DNA of 6,906 bases, taken from contig CALCEF010000040.1 in NCBI GenBank assembly GCA_937901365.1, forward strand, positions 1-6,906, given 5' to 3'. Under the pieces are notes generated by a model, which saw only the letters and a program-made list of their open reading frames with translations, was not told the origin of the DNA and ran no database searches. Every line of letters begins with the position of its first letter. Position 1 is the first letter of the stretch. Shown piece by piece: positions 1-6,845 of the stretch. Source of the stretch: an uncultured euryarchaeote (GTDB taxonomy: Archaea > Thermoplasmatota > Poseidoniia > Poseidoniales > Thalassarchaeaceae). The translations under genes were made by a program, and so were the position numbers.

Positions 1-3000
1 TTGATGCTCATCGTCGCACTTTCACCTCTCGTCACAGCGCAGCAGAACAGCGTTTCCGCTACGATTCTCACAGAATGGGTTGATGACGGCAATGACAACA
101 TCACGAATGGATACCGAATTATCTTGAGTGAATCGCTTCCATTTTCAGAATTAGATGAACTCTCAGTGATCGTTTCTCACAAGGATGCTGATGGCAACTC
201 AATCGGTGACTGGGCCATGGACTGGACAGGTGGAAACAACACCGAACTAAGTTTCACAGTCAATTCAACGCTAAATTGGAAGGACGAGATCACGGTCGAA
301 GTTTGGCAGAATGATTGCTGCAACCCCTCGGCCCTGCTCGGCTCACGAACCATCCAAGTGACGATTTGGAACGAACCACTTTCAGACCACGAAATCACGC
401 GCGTAACAAATTGGCATCTGATTCAGAACTCTGTGAACTTCACAGATAGTGAATCATGGGACCTCACATTCACCGGTCAGGGCTGGCAACAAAGAACTGG
501 TAACACGCTGGAATCTAACGAACTCGGTGCAGGCACACTCGCGATTGAAGAATCGATGGATGGCGGCACAGGTACCATCGCAATCGTTCTCTGGTTGGAC
601 ACGGTTTGGTTGAATGAAACGGTCAATGGCATGGATTTACAGAGCCAGGTTTTCGAGATGCGTGGCAATGGAACGATTGGGTTAAACAGCAGTGATGATG
701 GAGTCGATACCGAAATTTTCGGCAACGTGGTTAATTCCTACATTATTCGGAGCTTAGACCAAGGAGTCGTCGAAGAACAATTGCGGATCGAAGCAAATGG
801 TGGTATTCACCTTTCATCAGAAGGCGGAGGTGAAACGATGGAAGCCAACGGAACGCTTGCGCTTCTCCTGATTGAGACTCACGACATCGATGGTGAACGC
901 ATTCTGATGAATTCCGAATTCGAAGGGACTGCGGACATGGACATTCGAGGTGAAGATTACCAGATGGATTTGGACATCAGTCAAATCCTCAGTCGAGAGC
1001 GCTGGGAGAACGGTCAATTCCACTCTTCTCTCAATCGAATCCAAGGAGATGGAGCATTCGATTTCACCGATCAAGAAGAGAATAGTTCGATGACGGTCAA
1101 TGCAACCGTCTACGAGATTTTCCAAGAATCGGTTGACGGATTGAAGACAGGAGATCGCCTCCATGTTGACGGCACATTTTCGGGAGACGTCACCGGTGAC
1201 TTCGGTATTGTTCGCGACATTGTTGCAACAGGCCACTCGCAAGAAAATGCAACTGGAGTTGCCTTTGATACGAATGTCATCTTCACAGAACAATGGTTGA
1301 ATCTATCAGGACTTGGAAACAACCCATTCGAAATGGAGGCCGTTCACAACAAGACATGGGAATATGAGGTCCCGGAGGAACATTGGGAAAATCGAACCGT
1401 GCGTCTGCGCTGGGATTCCACAGAGGGTGGAGAGCCCTCTGAGGGCGATGAATTCCCCGAGCGAAGCCCCATCCAAATCGACCGTGAAGCTCCAAGCGCC
1501 GAGAGTACACTCGGAGATGTAGATATCACGCGAGAGACAGGTTTGGCTCCTGCGGGCTTAACCGTGGGCGACCGTGTTGATCTGTTAGGTTCTGAATTGA
1601 TGCATCTCAGCATCACTGCGACAAGTACCGGAACAGTGGTCCGGGATGGTCACACGATTCCAGTGACCTATTGGGATGGAGCATACGGAAACGAGGGCTC
1701 GGCAACGGGTGCCGTCATCAACGAGGGGATTCTTGCAGGTCTAATCGCCGAGGTTACTCGCAATGTCACCCTCGACATGGATCAAGGAGACAGTCTAGAG
1801 TTCGGCGAAACCCAGTCCCTCGCGCGCGTACTCTCTCCATCGATCATCACCGAAAGTGAGAACACCGCACCCAGCATTGTATCGGTCTCCATTCGAGAAG
1901 GCGCAATCACCAACGAAGACGCTGCCAGTGTTCACTTGGAAGTTCAAGTCGATGATGTCGATTGGAATATCCGCACCGTCACAGCAGATTTGTCAGCACT
2001 ATCACTCGGCACGGTTACACTGAATGATGTCGGGCTTGAGGGTGACATCTCGGTACACGATGAGACATTCACTGCTGAAATTCAGTATCCAGGTGTCATT
2101 GATGGTGATGTAAGTATCCAAATCAACGTCGCTGATGATTGGGTGACAACCAGCGAATCGCATGACATTCAGGTCATCAATCGCCTCCCACGAATCACGA
2201 CATTCGCATACTCGCCCAGCACGGTGAACCGTGGAGATACGACATCAGTGTCGATCATTGCAAACGATGGTTCTGGTGTCACGGCTGTGGGTGTTGACAC
2301 CACTGAATGGGGTGGCAATGTGACATGGCTCACTCTCACCGACGGAATGTGGATGGGTGATTTGGTCGTCCCTGACTCCATTCCAAGCGGAGATCAATTG
2401 TTGCCTGTACGACTTGAAGATGGAGCTGGAGGAAGCGGTCTGACAACCCAGTTTGGAACCGGTGAAGATTTGCCAAGCCTACACATCTTGAATGAAGGGC
2501 CAGCAATCTCAGAGGTCACATTCTATGATGATGGAAATGTTGTCACCACTCTGGGAATCCCTCTCACCGGCTCAAATCAATACACCATGACTGCTGTTGT
2601 GACCGACTTGGACCCCGTAACAATTGTACAGTCACGGTTGGGTGTTCTTGCCCCACCCGGTCAAAGTGAAAGTTGGATTTCAATGCGTGATGATGGGATT
2701 GGACCAGATGCTGTAGCAGGCGATGGTATCTGGTCGGTTCACGTTGAAGTTCGACCCGGAGTGCCTGGTGGTGTGACTACCCTCGAAATTCGTGGAATTG
2801 ACCAACAACTTGCACAAACACCGGTAAGCGACCGCACATTCTCAGTTGAATTGGGTTCAACGGATGGTGGTGATGGAGGTGGACAAGCAGTCCTCGAAAG
2901 CGCCAGCCAAGAATGGTTGATCTTCGGAATCATTGGCCTTTTCGTGATTCTCGCTATCGTTGGAATCACAATGTGGATTCGTGGTGGAGGTCTCAAACAG

Positions 3001-3030
3001 ATGATACCTTCAGAAGACCCATGGAAATAG
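1..3030 (+). CDS. Large exported surface protein with Ig-like repeats and C-terminal membrane anchor (5' partial)
   Basis: The frame is open from base 1 to a TAG stop, giving 1009 visible residues. The first 13 residues are hydrophobic and end in VTA before QQ, which fits the end of a signal peptide. No positively charged n-region precedes them, so I infer that the real start lies upstream and the gene is cut by the window edge. The mature part is acidic and strand-rich, with at least fifteen N-x-S/T sequons, as expected for a glycosylated archaeal surface protein. Residues about 219-430 contain a degenerate beta repeat; about 621-952 look like three tandem Ig/cadherin-like modules. A Gly/Asp-rich linker (about 953-962) leads to one hydrophobic helix (about 972-993) and a short tail with R, K and K, so the protein should be anchored with its bulk outside. 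The only cysteines are an adjacent pair, C106-C107. I see no enzymatic motif. An S-layer-associated, adhesive or substrate-binding role is possible, but the function is unknown. Confidence 0.85.
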   Translation: MMLIVALSPLVTAQQNSVSATILTEWVDDGNDNITNGYRIILSESLPFSELDELSVIVSHKDADGNSIGDWAMDWTGGNNTELSFTVNSTLNWKDEITVEVWQNDCCNPSALLGSRTIQVTIWNEPLSDHEITRVTNWHLIQNSVNFTDSESWDLTFTGQGWQQRTGNTLESNELGAGTLAIEESMDGGTGTIAIVLWLDTVWLNETVNGMDLQSQVFEMRGNGTIGLNSSDDGVDTEIFGNVVNSYIIRSLDQGVVEEQLRIEANGGIHLSSEGGGETMEANGTLALLLIETHDIDGERILMNSEFEGTADMDIRGEDYQMDLDISQILSRERWENGQFHSSLNRIQGDGAFDFTDQEENSSMTVNATVYEIFQESVDGLKTGDRLHVDGTFSGDVTGDFGIVRDIVATGHSQENATGVAFDTNVIFTEQWLNLSGLGNNPFEMEAVHNKTWEYEVPEEHWENRTVRLRWDSTEGGEPSEGDEFPERSPIQIDREAPSAESTLGDVDITRETGLAPAGLTVGDRVDLLGSELMHLSITATSTGTVVRDGHTIPVTYWDGAYGNEGSATGAVINEGILAGLIAEVTRNVTLDMDQGDSLEFGETQSLARVLSPSIITESENTAPSIVSVSIREGAITNEDAASVHLEVQVDDVDWNIRTVTADLSALSLGTVTLNDVGLEGDISVHDETFTAEIQYPGVIDGDVSIQINVADDWVTTSESHDIQVINRLPRITTFAYSPSTVNRGDTTSVSIIANDGSGVTAVGVDTTEWGGNVTWLTLTDGMWMGDLVVPDSIPSGDQLLPVRLEDGAGGSGLTTQFGTGEDLPSLHILNEGPAISEVTFYDDGNVVTTLGIPLTGSNQYTMTAVVTDLDPVTIVQSRLGVLAPPGQSESWISMRDDGIGPDAVAGDGIWSVHVEVRPGVPGGVTTLEIRGIDQQLAQTPVSDRTFSVELGSTDGGDGGGQAVLESASQEWLIFGIIGLFVILAIVGITMWIRGGGLKQMIPSEDPWK
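655..1290 (+). repeat. Degenerate ~42-residue beta repeat inside the surface protein
   Basis: Similar short strands recur at regular spacing in the protein: MRGNGTIGLN near residue 220, RIEANGGIHLS near 262, EFEGTADMDI near 306, RIQGDGAFDF near 346 and HVDGTFSGDV near 388. The shared pattern is roughly hydrophobic-x-G/A-D/N-G-T/A followed by alternating hydrophobic residues, with steps of 40-44 residues. The DNA copies are not identical, so this is an old protein-level repeat and not a recent duplication. It could be a beta-solenoid, or one large beta-sheet domain of the LolA/lipoprotein type whose strands happen to look alike. Confidence 0.4.
1861..2856 (+). repeat. Three tandem Ig/cadherin-like modules in the surface protein
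   Basis: Module boundaries are marked by a recurring N-x-x-P-x-I start: NTAPSIVSVSI (residue 621), NRLPRITTFAY (727) and NEGPAISEVTF (831), about 105 residues apart. Each module continues with a hydrophobic strand pair and a D-rich turn. The third contains the sequence DDGIGPDAVAGDGIWSV, a signature often seen in extracellular Ig-like modules of the choice-of-anchor type. The assignment rests on strand pattern and turn motifs only. Confidence 0.5.
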
Positions 3031-3084: not shown

Positions 3085-3159
3085 GCGAGCGTAGTGTAGC
3101 GGTTATCACCGGGCGTTGCCAACGCCTGAACCCGGATTCAAATTCCGGCGCTCGCACCA
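3085..3159 (+). tRNA. tRNA-Gly (anticodon GCC)
   Basis: A full cloverleaf folds by hand. The acceptor stem GCGAGCG (3085-3091) pairs perfectly with CGCTCGC (3149-3155). The D arm has GTG/CAC (3094-3096 with 3107-3109) and a GG pair in its loop. The anticodon stem GGGCG/CGCCT (3111-3115 with 3123-3127; one G-U pair) closes the loop TTGCCAA with anticodon GCC at 3118-3120. The variable loop is four bases, and the T arm CCGGA/TCCGG encloses TTCAAAT. The discriminator is A (3156), which is the archaeal/eukaryotic state for tRNA-Gly, and CCA is encoded at 3157-3159. There is no intron. The tRNA reads GGC and GGT (by wobble) glycine codons. Confidence 0.96.
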
Positions 3160-3160
3160 A

Positions 3161-3523
3161 TCATTCGATTAGAGAACGCACATGAGCCTCGATGGCATCT
3201 CGTGTTTTTCGATAAACATCGATACTTTGACCCACAGGATCATCCAATTCCCAATCACCATCAAGCGCCACTGCCGGACAGGATACGCCACATCCCATAC
3301 TGAACACCAAATCGTATGTGGTGTGGTCAATATCATCGATTTGGTCAGGAGTCTGATTTGAGATGTCGATACCTTTCTCGGCCATCACTGCAACCGCATT
3401 TGGTGCGACTTTCCCACCAGGGTGAGTGCCAGCACTGGCTGCCTCCATTCCGAGATGACGGGCCCAACCTTCTGCCATTTGGCTTCGACATGTATTCCCC
3501 ACACAAACAAACAGGACGCGCAT
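3161..3523 (-). CDS. arsC: Low-molecular-weight phosphatase / thioredoxin-type arsenate reductase family protein
   Basis: The product is 120 residues, slightly short for this family (usually about 130-155). It opens with the P-loop CVGNTCR (C7 to R13) followed by SQMAEG, the signature of LMW protein tyrosine phosphatases and ArsC; C7 would be the nucleophile. SAGTHPGG and ISNQTPDQI are further family blocks. C78 and C82 in MGCGVSCP occupy the place of the redox cysteine pair of arsenate reductases, but three residues lie between them, fewer than the six in the S. aureus plasmid enzyme. LDDPVG (D94-P96) supplies the general-acid Asp. In the family, this chemistry reduces arsenate to arsenite or dephosphorylates tyrosine, in the cytoplasm. 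The cysteine pair favours arsenate reductase. No arsR or arsenite exporter is next to it, so a phosphatase or redox-sensing role remains open. The ATG at 3523 begins right at the conserved first strand, and no Shine-Dalgarno precedes it. Confidence 0.9.
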   Translation of the reverse strand: MRVLFVCVGNTCRSQMAEGWARHLGMEAASAGTHPGGKVAPNAVAVMAEKGIDISNQTPDQIDDIDHTTYDLVFSMGCGVSCPAVALDGDWELDDPVGQSIDVYRKTRDAIEAHVRSLIE

Positions 3524-3633: not shown

Positions 3634-4647
3634 ATGAGTGGACCTATTTCCCATCACAATCCTGGTGAAGGTGAAGAAAAGGCCGAGCCACCCGAAGCAT
3701 CCGCCGATCAAAAAGCGCAGATGGAGCAAGCCTATGCTCAGATGCGCCGCAAACTCCGAATGACGCGTCTCGCCGAGGATATTGGAAACAAAATCATGGT
3801 TCTTTCCGGCAAAGGGGGCGTTGGGAAATCAACCGTTGCCACCGGTCTGGCACTAAGTTTGGCAAAACAAGGAAAGAAGGTCGGCATTCTCGACATCGAC
3901 ATCACAGGTCCTAACGTTCCGAAGATGCTCGGTATCGAAGATACTGAGTTGCATGTTGAGGACAATCAAATCCATCCTGCAGACGGCCCAAATGGCGTCA
4001 AGGTGATGTCGATGGCATTCCTATTGGAAGATCCGGACAAGCCAGTAATCTGGAGGGGTCCAATCAAATTGGGAGCCATACAGCAATTCATTGGGGATGT
4101 TGCGTGGGGCAAACTCGACACCCTCATCATCGATTTCCCTCCAGGGACCAGTGATGAGCCACTAACCGTCGCTCAATCACTACCGAATATCGATGGAATG
4201 GTGATTGTAACCACTCCTCAAGATGTAGCACTTCTCGACAGTCGGAAGTCAATCAATTTCTCAAAGACAGTGAAGATTCCTGTTTTGGGTGTGGTCGAGA
4301 ATATGAGCGGTTACACTCTCAGAGGCAAGGCTGATCCAAACAGTGAGGTCACAGTCATCGGTCCGCAAGGGTTGCCTGTGCAGACAACCACTGACGATGA
4401 TGGAGATTGGGCGGTCACCCTCAACCTGTTCAAGCAAGGTGGTGGAGAGGCTGCAGCTGTAGAATTTGAGGTCCCATTCTTGGGCGCACTTCCCTTTGAC
4501 CCAGGAGTTGTTCGCGGAGGTGATGATGGTGTGCACAGGATTGTCGCCGAGCCAGAAGGCGAAACTGCACAAGCATTCGATACGATTGTCGAGAACCTTT
4601 TGGCCGAACTCGCAAAGGGCGAAGATGAGGCTCCTGAAATCATCTAA
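3634..4647 (+). CDS. mrp: Mrp/NBP35-family P-loop ATPase, cysteine-free, with Ig-like insert
   Basis: The product is 337 residues from the ATG at 3634, chosen because GGAG precedes it by eight bases; an in-frame TTG at 3541 would add 31 residues unlike the family. A charged Glu/Pro/Gln-rich tail (1-40) precedes the ATPase. The deviant Walker A GKGGVGKST is at 59-67, the switch I-like LDIDITGPN at 86-94, and the Walker B/switch II IIDFPPGTSDE at 165-175, followed by VTTPQDVALLD and VVENMSG. Family members are cytoplasmic dimers that carry or transfer Fe-S clusters through a CxxC just after the NMSG block. Here that place is taken by residues 227-268 (4312-4437), with no CxxC, and the whole protein has no cysteine. 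The family pattern resumes at GGGEAAA and VPFLGALPFDP. It lacks the DUF59 domain of bacterial Mrp. Nucleotide binding is well supported; classical Fe-S carriage is not. The PAP2 gene follows closely on the same strand. Confidence 0.93.
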   Translation: MSGPISHHNPGEGEEKAEPPEASADQKAQMEQAYAQMRRKLRMTRLAEDIGNKIMVLSGKGGVGKSTVATGLALSLAKQGKKVGILDIDITGPNVPKMLGIEDTELHVEDNQIHPADGPNGVKVMSMAFLLEDPDKPVIWRGPIKLGAIQQFIGDVAWGKLDTLIIDFPPGTSDEPLTVAQSLPNIDGMVIVTTPQDVALLDSRKSINFSKTVKIPVLGVVENMSGYTLRGKADPNSEVTVIGPQGLPVQTTTDDDGDWAVTLNLFKQGGGEAAAVEFEVPFLGALPFDPGVVRGGDDGVHRIVAEPEGETAQAFDTIVENLLAELAKGEDEAPEII

Positions 4648-4700
4648 GTGGCAACCCTCTTCATTAGATGCGCTCTAGACACGTTCTGGAAGGGTACACG

Positions 4701-6845
4701 ATGGTCGGTGGTACAGGCGTTTACGTCACCTGGGTTACAGGTGCAATCATCGTCTCCTTGCTCCTCATGCCTGTTCTCAAACCTCCTTGGGCACGAATCA
4801 CCCTCACAGGTTTTCAAGACATGTTCAGGCGCTATTGGATGCATGGAATCGTGGTCTTTTCAATTTACATCTGGAAGGATATTTTCGATGGTGTCGACCG
4901 AATATTGATGGCCAATACTCGTATCGATATGACGGCATACATCTATGCGATCGAAGGTGACATTGTTCTATGGTTTCAGCAAACCTTCGAGAATACAATT
5001 CTGACCGCAGTACTCACTCATTTCTACGTTGCAGGATATATGATGGTTATTTTCAGCGCCTTCGTTTACGCTTGTTATTTCGACGACCGACACATGGCCG
5101 ATCGAATCTCATTGACTCTACTGCTAACCTACATGTTGGCGCTTCCATTCTATCTGTTCTTCAATGTCCGTGTCACTGGCGATTACATTCCTGAAATGGA
5201 AACCCTAGGTTATCATCTCACGCCCGAAATCCAGACATGGTTCACCCGCATCGATCCATTCACCAACGGCATGCCAAGTTTACACATCGGGATTCCATTT
5301 TCAATCTGGTATTGTTTCGCACGAAACGATCTCGATGGCCGATGGAAAATTTGGCGCACGTGCATGATCGTTTACACGCTATTGACGGCTTTCACAATTC
5401 TCTATTTGGGTATCCATTGGATTAGTGACATTATCGGCGGTATTGCAGTTGGAATGCTCGCAGTACACCTTTCTGAACGAATTGCCCCCTCGGTTTGGTG
5501 GTGGTTGGATGAGCGTTCCTTCTTGCATAGAGTTTCTTGGCTTCTTGCAGATTGGCGTCGCCCAGTCAATGAAATTGGTTCCATCATAGGGGGTTGGGTC
5601 GCTTGGTTCAAGGTCGGTGGAAGTCGGCAAACCGGCGTGGTCATGATGCTTCTACTCGCAGGCACAGGAGGTACTTTGCTATGGGATGCAACCCACCAAC
5701 ATTTCCCGGCTGAAGGGGTATCGCAACCAGGCGTCGCCGCAGGAGCGGATGGCTGGTTGGCAAGTTATGAGACCATTGACGAAGGAAACATCACTGTAAC
5801 CCTGTGGAATCTTTCTACTGAAGAATCCTATCAGCAAAATTTCGGAATCGACACTGATTGGGGGAACTATCCCGTGGAGATCTTAATTGGTGAATCACAT
5901 ATTGTGGTTTGGCATGGCTATCAGATGGAATTTTTCAATCTTAGCAATAATCAGTGGGAGGGCCAATGGCTGACAGGGCCCCTGTTTGATGACATCGCCA
6001 TGTTGTCTAACGGCGATGATGATTGGCCGCGTATGGTCATGTTGAATGAGGGCGAAGTCGAGGTACGACTCCGTGGAGGTATTGATTGTTCCACAGCCAA
6101 CGGGTGCACAAGCCTCCCCACCACTCCAAATGGACCTGTATCAATCATCGCGGCTGACGACAACCGGGTTGCATATACTGAGGTGGACACACCCCTTTCT
6201 GTCCACATCCAAACCATCGACGGCATTCAACAACATATCACGGTTGAAATCAATGCAACCATCGATGAAGATCGAGATGAACAAGTATCTCAAATGACAG
6301 ATACAACGGTTGACTACAACAATGCAACGATTACGGATATTGCACTCGACGAAAACCACCTTGTCGCTTTGGTGAATCTGAGTGCAATCGATCGTTTGGT
6401 TTTGGTCGACCTTACGAGTGGTGAGCAGCGAATTCTTGGTGACCCGGTCTTCCCTGTTGATGCACCAAGTATCGGGCACGGATACGTCGCTTGGCAACAT
6501 CATCAATTCCTCATTTCAAACAATCCGATGGAGATGTATCTCGACTGGGAAGTGGATTACCATGACATTGCAATGAACCAATCATTCCAATTGCATGCAG
6601 AAGATGAAATCGACCAACTCCAACCTCAAGTGATGGAGGATCACATCGCTTGGTTGCAGGTCGATGAAGACAACGAAACAGAAATTCGAATCTTCACCCT
6701 TGAGGTTGTACTCGAACCCTATTCTTCCACCACGTTGCAAATCTTCGTTCTCATCTTCCCCTTGCTACTCTTGACTTGGACCGCACAGCGGTTGAAGGAA
6801 AATGAAGGGAAAATACTGCCCCGCAGACACACTGAAGAAGAGTGA
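4701..6845 (+). CDS. PAP2-family membrane phosphatase/phosphotransferase fused to a beta-propeller-like ectodomain
   Basis: Numbering is from the ATG at 4701 (714 residues). An in-frame ATG at 4668 would add 11 residues. I prefer 4701 because a purine-rich stretch (GGAAGGG) lies just upstream, and because the predicted N-out topology disfavours the extra Arg residues; the choice is not certain. About eight membrane helices fall within residues 6-328. PAP2 active-site elements are visible: PSLH at 192-195, then GIHWISD with H239 and D243; R157 may belong to the first motif. This resembles the Aur1/inositolphosphotransferase-like PAP2 branch, which acts on lipid phosphates or polyprenyl/inositol lipids outside the membrane. 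Residues about 329-675 form a sequon-rich domain with six or seven strand clusters of the type G-x-x-V-A-W followed by I-x-L-x-D-L-x-x-G, as in TolB/WD-like propellers. A CX5C pair (C463, C469) may form a disulfide. A last helix (about 677-695) ends in a basic tail. Positive-inside charges place the active site and propeller on the same outer face. Substrate unknown. Confidence 0.85.
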   Translation: MVGGTGVYVTWVTGAIIVSLLLMPVLKPPWARITLTGFQDMFRRYWMHGIVVFSIYIWKDIFDGVDRILMANTRIDMTAYIYAIEGDIVLWFQQTFENTILTAVLTHFYVAGYMMVIFSAFVYACYFDDRHMADRISLTLLLTYMLALPFYLFFNVRVTGDYIPEMETLGYHLTPEIQTWFTRIDPFTNGMPSLHIGIPFSIWYCFARNDLDGRWKIWRTCMIVYTLLTAFTILYLGIHWISDIIGGIAVGMLAVHLSERIAPSVWWWLDERSFLHRVSWLLADWRRPVNEIGSIIGGWVAWFKVGGSRQTGVVMMLLLAGTGGTLLWDATHQHFPAEGVSQPGVAAGADGWLASYETIDEGNITVTLWNLSTEESYQQNFGIDTDWGNYPVEILIGESHIVVWHGYQMEFFNLSNNQWEGQWLTGPLFDDIAMLSNGDDDWPRMVMLNEGEVEVRLRGGIDCSTANGCTSLPTTPNGPVSIIAADDNRVAYTEVDTPLSVHIQTIDGIQQHITVEINATIDEDRDEQVSQMTDTTVDYNNATITDIALDENHLVALVNLSAIDRLVLVDLTSGEQRILGDPVFPVDAPSIGHGYVAWQHHQFLISNNPMEMYLDWEVDYHDIAMNQSFQLHAEDEIDQLQPQVMEDHIAWLQVDEDNETEIRIFTLEVVLEPYSSTTLQIFVLIFPLLLLTWTAQRLKENEGKILPRRHTEEE

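Follow-up and report, generated by a model that had tools for sequence, protein, structure and literature searches.

The CxxC pair is regarded as the functional core of Mrp/NBP35 proteins: the accessible text of PMC6345978 describes it as binding the bridging iron-sulfur (Fe-S) cluster and as essential in vivo, and the accessible part of PMC11838916 says much the same of two conserved cysteines at the dimer interface. What, then, can an Mrp protein do when it has no cysteine at all? The question is raised by a stretch of 6,906 nucleotides from an uncultured euryarchaeote of the Thalassarchaeaceae (Thermoplasmatota, Poseidoniales; GenBank assembly GCA_937901365.1, contig CALCEF010000040.1), here called the window, which carries the gene for an Mrp/NBP35-family P-loop ATPase at positions 3634–4647 of the + strand. 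The window is contig C40 of genome G000, an assembly of 376 contigs that is 81% complete. We propose, with a rough probability of 0.45, that this protein, the sole Mrp/NBP35-type ATPase found in its lineage, has had its CxxC hairpin replaced by a module with a predicted immunoglobulin (Ig)-like fold, likely still works in Fe-S assembly, and probably draws on the cysteines of a separate DUF971 protein.

An Mrp ATPase without cysteines

Read from its ATG, the open reading frame encodes a protein of 337 residues that is a member of the Mrp/NBP35 ATPase family by sequence and fold, matching PF10609 in a profile search at 297.9 bits against a curated cut-off of 27.1. Two homolog searches, each of which listed the 120 highest-ranking of about 8000 scored candidates, together gave 229 homologs (120 from the first and 109 further ones from the second, a few of them fragments). 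The nearest named ones are called "Candidatus Thermoplasmatota archaeon," and Candidatus Thalassarchaeaceae or Thalassarchaeum proteins stand at 72–73% identity. For the alignment, six partial or odd proteins were removed by name, lengths of 295–400 residues were kept, and a 92% identity filter left 130 proteins; conservation is given below over 131 aligned, nonredundant members.

The sequence-only reading of this DNA had described an Mrp free of cysteine, and this holds: the translation contains none. The missing CxxC is a shared trait, as no CxxC occurs in any of the 229 listed homologs, which rules out a sequencing or assembly error in the window. Overall, 116 of the homologs have no cysteine, 103 have one, eight have two, one has three, and one has seven. 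The proteins with three and seven look irregular (P0207 diverges past the loop, and P0183 is 543 residues long). Because the defining CxxC is missing, the window's protein should not be classed among the Mrp iron-sulfur carriers.

The ATPase core is otherwise well kept. A deviant Walker A motif, SGKGGVGKST, is read from the translation at residues 58–67 (3805–3834, + strand), with S58, G59–G64, and T67 invariant and K65 and S66 conserved in at least 90% of the aligned homologs. In the segment DFPPGTSDEP at residues 167–176 (4132–4161, + strand), which we take to be the switch II/Walker B region, D167, P169–G171, and D174–P176 are invariant. The P-loop fits the deviant Walker A signature GKGGhGK[ST], as worded in the accessible text of PMC6345978. 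Within one genus, the ratio of nonsynonymous to synonymous substitution rates (dN/dS) is about 0.02 for the core and about 0.13 for the insert described below, and the insert thus evolves under purifying selection there; the ratios are rough, with dS near saturation, and come from eight sequences, of whose 28 pairs 15 served for the insert and 17 for the core, the others having been dropped for undefined or saturated dS. Purifying selection and the intact P-loop and switch motifs argue against gene decay, in agreement with the sequence-only reading. Two genomes show a disrupted Mrp frame: in G118 (L260, a single-contig genome) it breaks near the 3′ end, and in G006 (L013) it contains two TGA codons. 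Each case looks like an assembly or base-calling artifact in an otherwise conserved gene.

A 34-residue module in place of the CxxC hairpin

In this phylum, Mrps of the CxxC type have the pattern NMSGF-x-CPHCGK-x-IDLFKxGGG, and the window protein reads NMSGYT, then 34 residues, then LNLFKQGGG. Between NMSG (residues 223–226) and GGGE (residues 269–272) lie 42 residues, as the earlier reading had counted, versus 15 in CxxC-type Thermoplasmatota Mrps (e.g., FKCPHCNKDIDLFKT), the spacing it had called typical. The stretch actually replaced is narrower: by loop comparison, AlphaFold2 (AF2) modeling, and the Big_6 profile, a predicted four-strand Ig-like β module occupies residues 229–262 (4318–4419, + strand), the position of the CPHCGK hairpin in CxxC-type Mrps. 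Its flanks, YT and the conserved LNLFKQGGG tail (residues 263–271; 4420–4446, + strand), remain alignable with the canonical F-x and IDLFKxGGG. PF10609 itself splits into two matches, with profile positions 2–179 on window positions 3781–4320 and profile positions 186–245 on window positions 4420–4599, and the gap between them is exactly the insert. The loop comparison consisted of 154 locus rows, which are redundant in that several loci may come from one genome; locus L093, classed as "other" by the loop classifier, is of the insert type by eye.

Within the module, G231, P235, D254, and G257 are conserved at 89–100% and the remaining positions are mostly variable, while F266 and G269–G271 of the tail reach 98–100%. 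Cysteines do appear singly in some relatives: 10 of 131 rows have one at residue 251, in the insert, and these fall entirely within the Poseidoniales part of the alignment, and 40 of 131 rows have one at residue 124, in the core, each belonging to the 78 f31-like rows (f31 being a distant Thermoplasmatota family, introduced below). Neither cysteine is fixed, and therefore no replacement ligand set is visible.

Predicted fold and Ig-like character of the module

The whole-chain AF2 model places four strands at residues 227–232, 238–242, 248–252, and 258–263, with a predicted local distance difference test (pLDDT) score of 88–97 across the block; the segment was also predicted alone. From these models, the module is predicted to fold as a compact four-strand Ig-like β unit, in line with the small β insert proposed earlier. 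Submitted to Foldseek alone, the segment returned Bap and SiiE adhesin domains as its top six matches (probability 0.90–0.98), and the conserved G231, P235, D254, and G257 occupy the turns of the Ig-like pattern named in the sequence-only reading. A complete Ig sandwich is not present: the model has four strands, and the match covers positions 12–59 of the 83 in the Big_6 profile (PF17936).

How far the Ig-like resemblance goes depends on the homolog. The window Mrp matches Big_6 with E = 3.2e-4 and 21.3 bits (range 21.3–24.7), below the Pfam cut-off of 27.6, and E ≤ 0.01 is reached in 79 of 131 family members. A six-frame Big_6 search of 17 genomes gave Mrp as the sole match in 10 and no match in 7, with no Big_6 donor found elsewhere in the same genome; in four of the 17, Mrp lies above the cut-off, with a best score of 35.2 bits. 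The proposed resemblance to bacterial Ig-like domains is supported, being weak in the window's own protein and above the Pfam cut-off in some homologs. At somewhat less than even odds, the likeness could instead be a convergent β-meander, the insert having grown from the original hairpin with no ancestry shared with Big_6, an origin compatible with any functional reading. Arguing against convergence are the above-threshold scores, the six adhesin matches in Foldseek, and the coincidence of the conserved residues with Ig-like turn positions.

Distribution and history of CxxC loss

Among 194 genomes, 178, including the window's own, have a strong Mrp match (E ≤ 1.3e-24), nine have a weak one, and seven have none. 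Family labels were inferred, with f1 (the window's own) read as Thalassarchaeaceae, f2 as Poseidoniaceae, and their order as Poseidoniales; f3, which belongs to that class as well, is presumed to be Marine Group III. The insert-type loop is found throughout Poseidoniales, in both of its families, and also in f31 (L094, L095, L124, and L125; Thermoplasmata/Thermoplasmatota metagenome-assembled genomes). CxxC has disappeared by other routes elsewhere in the phylum: the hairpin is deleted in f24/f35 Mrps (NMSGDVFGIGGGE and similar; L103, L105, and L108), and in genus g23 of f3 the pair is substituted by a PPGS-type sequence (NMAGFTPPGSDEIYHIFGEGGG and similar; L115–L117 and L122).

A single origin for all of these losses was rejected in a tree test (p-AU 1.2e-6, where AU is approximately unbiased). 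One clade holding the Poseidoniales and f31 inserts was not rejected (p 0.596), and the tree constrained in this way scores slightly higher; the free tree gives f31 another position, which is weakly supported. That the insert arose only once in Poseidoniales and f31 is accordingly neither rejected nor shown.

Fe-S assembly genes and the search for a second Mrp

The window's own genome encodes, in a row, an ABC ATPase (SufC-like), two SUFBD proteins, a class-V aminotransferase (SufS-like), and SufE, and this row is adjoined by a DUF59 (SufT-like) gene that is cut by the contig end. Two SUFBD proteins, DUF59, and A-type carriers were found in all 15 Poseidoniales genomes tested. Looking for a second, CxxC-bearing Mrp, as the sequence-only reading had suggested, we found no strong one in 59 genomes. 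Eight of these (G001, G009, G010, G013, G028, G124, G134, and G136) have no full Mrp of any kind, and the missing second Mrp is therefore uninformative there. In the window's own genome, one further PF10609 match above the cut-off (contig C301) was considered as a second Mrp and rejected, as it reads as Soj/ParA-like; a weaker match on C83 scores 20.6 bits, below the cut-off, and a pattern scan gave no P-loop frame for it.

Two observations concern other families. SufB/SufD gave no match in either genome of f3 genus g23 tested (G322 and G401). In an f31 genome (G247:C24), the insert-bearing Mrp has a gene for an A-type carrier 2.6 kb downstream, in the same orientation.

The DUF971 protein

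In f2, the gene directly downstream of the cysteine-free Mrp encodes a protein of ≈117 residues with four cysteines (as at L184:8875–9225, L194:9118–9468, and L195:9380–9742) that matches PF06155 (DUF971), scoring 46–63 bits in three examples against a cut-off of 22.8. The two genes are neighbors with the same orientation in 50 of 51 f2 genomes, the exception being an Mrp at a contig edge. This count covers those 51 of the 76 f2 genomes that had listed positions for both genes and takes as adjacent two matches on one strand with fewer than 400 bases between their ends; for G118 it used an estimated Mrp end of 1778210 (the frame as read stops at 1778169, ahead of a DUF971 start at 1778316). The seven f2 genomes that gave no DUF971 are all missing a full Mrp as well (four have none, two have weak matches only, and one has a fragment), as would be expected if assembly gaps had removed both neighbors.

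PF06155 occurs in 180 of the 194 genomes and in none of 14 control genomes. Across a phylum sample, taken as one draw of 292 genomes whose misses are not all listed, it was matched in 76 of the 81 Poseidoniales, in 4 of the 6 f3 genomes, and in none of the remaining 205. We found 108 DUF971 relatives, 94 of them full length; CxCxxC is present in 90 of the 94, and both cysteine motifs, CxCAxC (CPCA-x-C) and a GCSSG-like one, in 88. Relatives from f2 carry the names Candidatus Poseidonia and Poseidoniaceae, and one relative (P0292) is annotated as "ATP-binding protein involved in chromosome partitioning." The f1 gene for DUF971 stands within a conserved gene string (L248–L259), whose other members look like L21e, an Rpb4-like RNA polymerase subunit, a DUF655-like protein, and KsgA.

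Family f3 carries DUF59, Mrp, and DUF971 in one chain (L115; one frame in G196 and in G322), which is the architecture of HCF101, given as DUF59-ParA-DUF971 with CxCxxC in most members in the accessible text of PMC7980591. In genus g23 of this family, where CxxC is lost, the DUF971 motif CPCAHC is kept in the three genomes that cover the region (L233–L235); G401 ends at a contig edge.

Gene neighborhood

The next gene after Mrp in the window (4668–6845, + strand) encodes a PAP2 phosphatase with a long C-terminal region, identified by Pfam PAP2 and by its neighborhoods. A PAP2 gene follows Mrp in 14 of 14 other Poseidoniales neighborhoods, as the next gene in f1 and after DUF971 in f2. On the other side, beside Mrp on the − strand, lies a low-molecular-weight phosphatase family gene (3161–3523; PF01451, 90.1 bits) with a homolog in 13 of the 14 neighborhoods. 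A tRNA-Gly (GCC) at 3085–3159 separates it from a frame of 1009 residues (1–3030) that is perhaps cut at the window edge and has no Pfam match. Judged by its sequence, this large protein looks secreted, with a membrane segment at its C terminus, and its homolog is near Mrp in all 14 other neighborhoods.

Discussion

We favor a rearranged Fe-S role for the cysteine-free Mrp because the SUF proteins, SufT, and A-type carriers are kept, no second Mrp was found in 59 genomes, and DUF971 is the next gene in f2; such a factor would fit the pattern better than an unrelated new role. Going by the family, the ATPase would dimerize, and the module would be positioned at the dimer apex, where the bridging [4Fe-4S] cluster would otherwise be held. 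There it may serve as a docking or dimer-clamping surface; the DUF971 protein would supply ligands and bind a metal or a cluster, and ATP binding or hydrolysis would drive hand-over of the cluster to target proteins. Such an arrangement would be a split version of HCF101, with SufT, Mrp, and DUF971 as three proteins and the ligand site moved off the ATPase. In its most specific form, which we consider doubtful, the bridging cluster has been given up, two Ig-like modules form the apex, and the four-cysteine DUF971 docks there carrying the cluster. ATP-driven gating and cluster binding would then lie on different proteins in Poseidoniales, to our knowledge the first Mrp-type system with engine and cargo site separated.

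Several observations weigh against this split arrangement. In f1, Mrp and DUF971 share a contig in only 2 of 79 genomes and are adjacent in one (79 of 118 f1 genomes, compared by contig number only). The window's own genome, at its 81% completeness, gave no DUF971 match and is one of the 14 misses. Family f31 has the insert and no genome among the DUF971 matches, and the insert is therefore not dependent on DUF971. Genus g22 of f3 (L119) has DUF971 and keeps CxxC. Because DUF971 tracks one class, its co-occurrence with a given Mrp type is confounded by descent. Since neither f31 nor the window's own genome gave a DUF971 match, we infer, rather than observe, that this protein is the cysteine source. 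The accessible text of PMC7980591, moreover, calls the role of DUF971 elusive.

The sequence-only reading had instead suggested a shift away from Fe-S carrier work. In one version, which strikes us as rather unlikely, the ATPase took up a job outside Fe-S assembly once the cluster was gone, for example with the adjacent membrane phosphatase or in ParA/MinD-like positioning or as a chaperone, and the β module binds a new partner. The SalA and HypB literature that we searched offers HypB as the only precedent, and in sequence the window Mrp is much closer to Cfd1 (188 bits) and AF2382 (179 bits) than to HypB of Thermococcus kodakarensis (104 bits). The constant PAP2 neighbor could be a partner of this kind; the linkage may, however, be plain synteny, because several other neighbors are equally conserved, and in f2 an HCF101 domain, DUF971, stands between the two genes. 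With SUF, SufT, and A-type carriers present and DUF971 adjacent in f2, the suggested shift is not supported as stated. Alternatively, Mrp might keep an ATP-dependent scaffold or chaperone step in the SUF pathway without any cluster, stabilizing apo-targets or SUF subunits, with DUF971 incidental. The pair has been lost by deletion in f24/f35, by substitution in f3 genus g23, and by replacement, and with these three modes and a single origin rejected, it can evidently be done without under some circumstances; the DUF971 matches, furthermore, include no genome of f24 or f35. This cluster-free step nonetheless seems improbable to us, as it does not account for a DUF971 protein that is nearly universal, has conserved cysteines, and adjoins Mrp in f2, and as CxxC is reported to be essential for Fe-S biogenesis in vivo in the studied members (accessible text of PMC6345978).

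Compared with the Mrp/ApbC/NBP35-Cfd1 iron-sulfur carriers, the window's Mrp is without CxxC or any other cysteine and has a 34-residue module instead. We saw no description of a CxxC-replaced Mrp in the open literature searched, a scope outside which most subscription papers lie. An order whose only detected Mrp has no CxxC is a natural experiment in which the ATPase role is separable from the cluster role. ATPase-type HypB of T. kodakarensis, described for hydrogenase maturation, is clearly more distant and, at 248 residues, shorter. Like Big_6 and other bacterial Ig-like adhesin domains, the module has the same turn pattern, with some homologs above the Pfam cut-off; unlike them, it amounts to about half a domain and sits in an Mrp, whose start in the window does not read like a secretion signal.

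The Mrp of the presumed Marine Group III (f3; L115–L119 and L122) belongs to the same class, and its genus g23 has likewise lost CxxC (TPPGSDEI) and keeps the DUF971 cysteines. It differs in being a fused DUF59-Mrp-DUF971 protein on a distant Mrp branch with no Ig-like insert, and genus g22 retains CxxC. A close parallel to the rearranged Fe-S factor that we favor is HCF101, described with a conserved CxxC in the accessible text of PMC7980591. Poseidoniales hold the same three domain types, a SufT-like DUF59, an Mrp, and a DUF971 with CxCxxC; unlike in HCF101, these are on three proteins, and the window protein consists of the ParA domain only, its CxxC lost, and is thus not an HCF101. The Poseidoniales system thereby makes the role of DUF971 directly testable.
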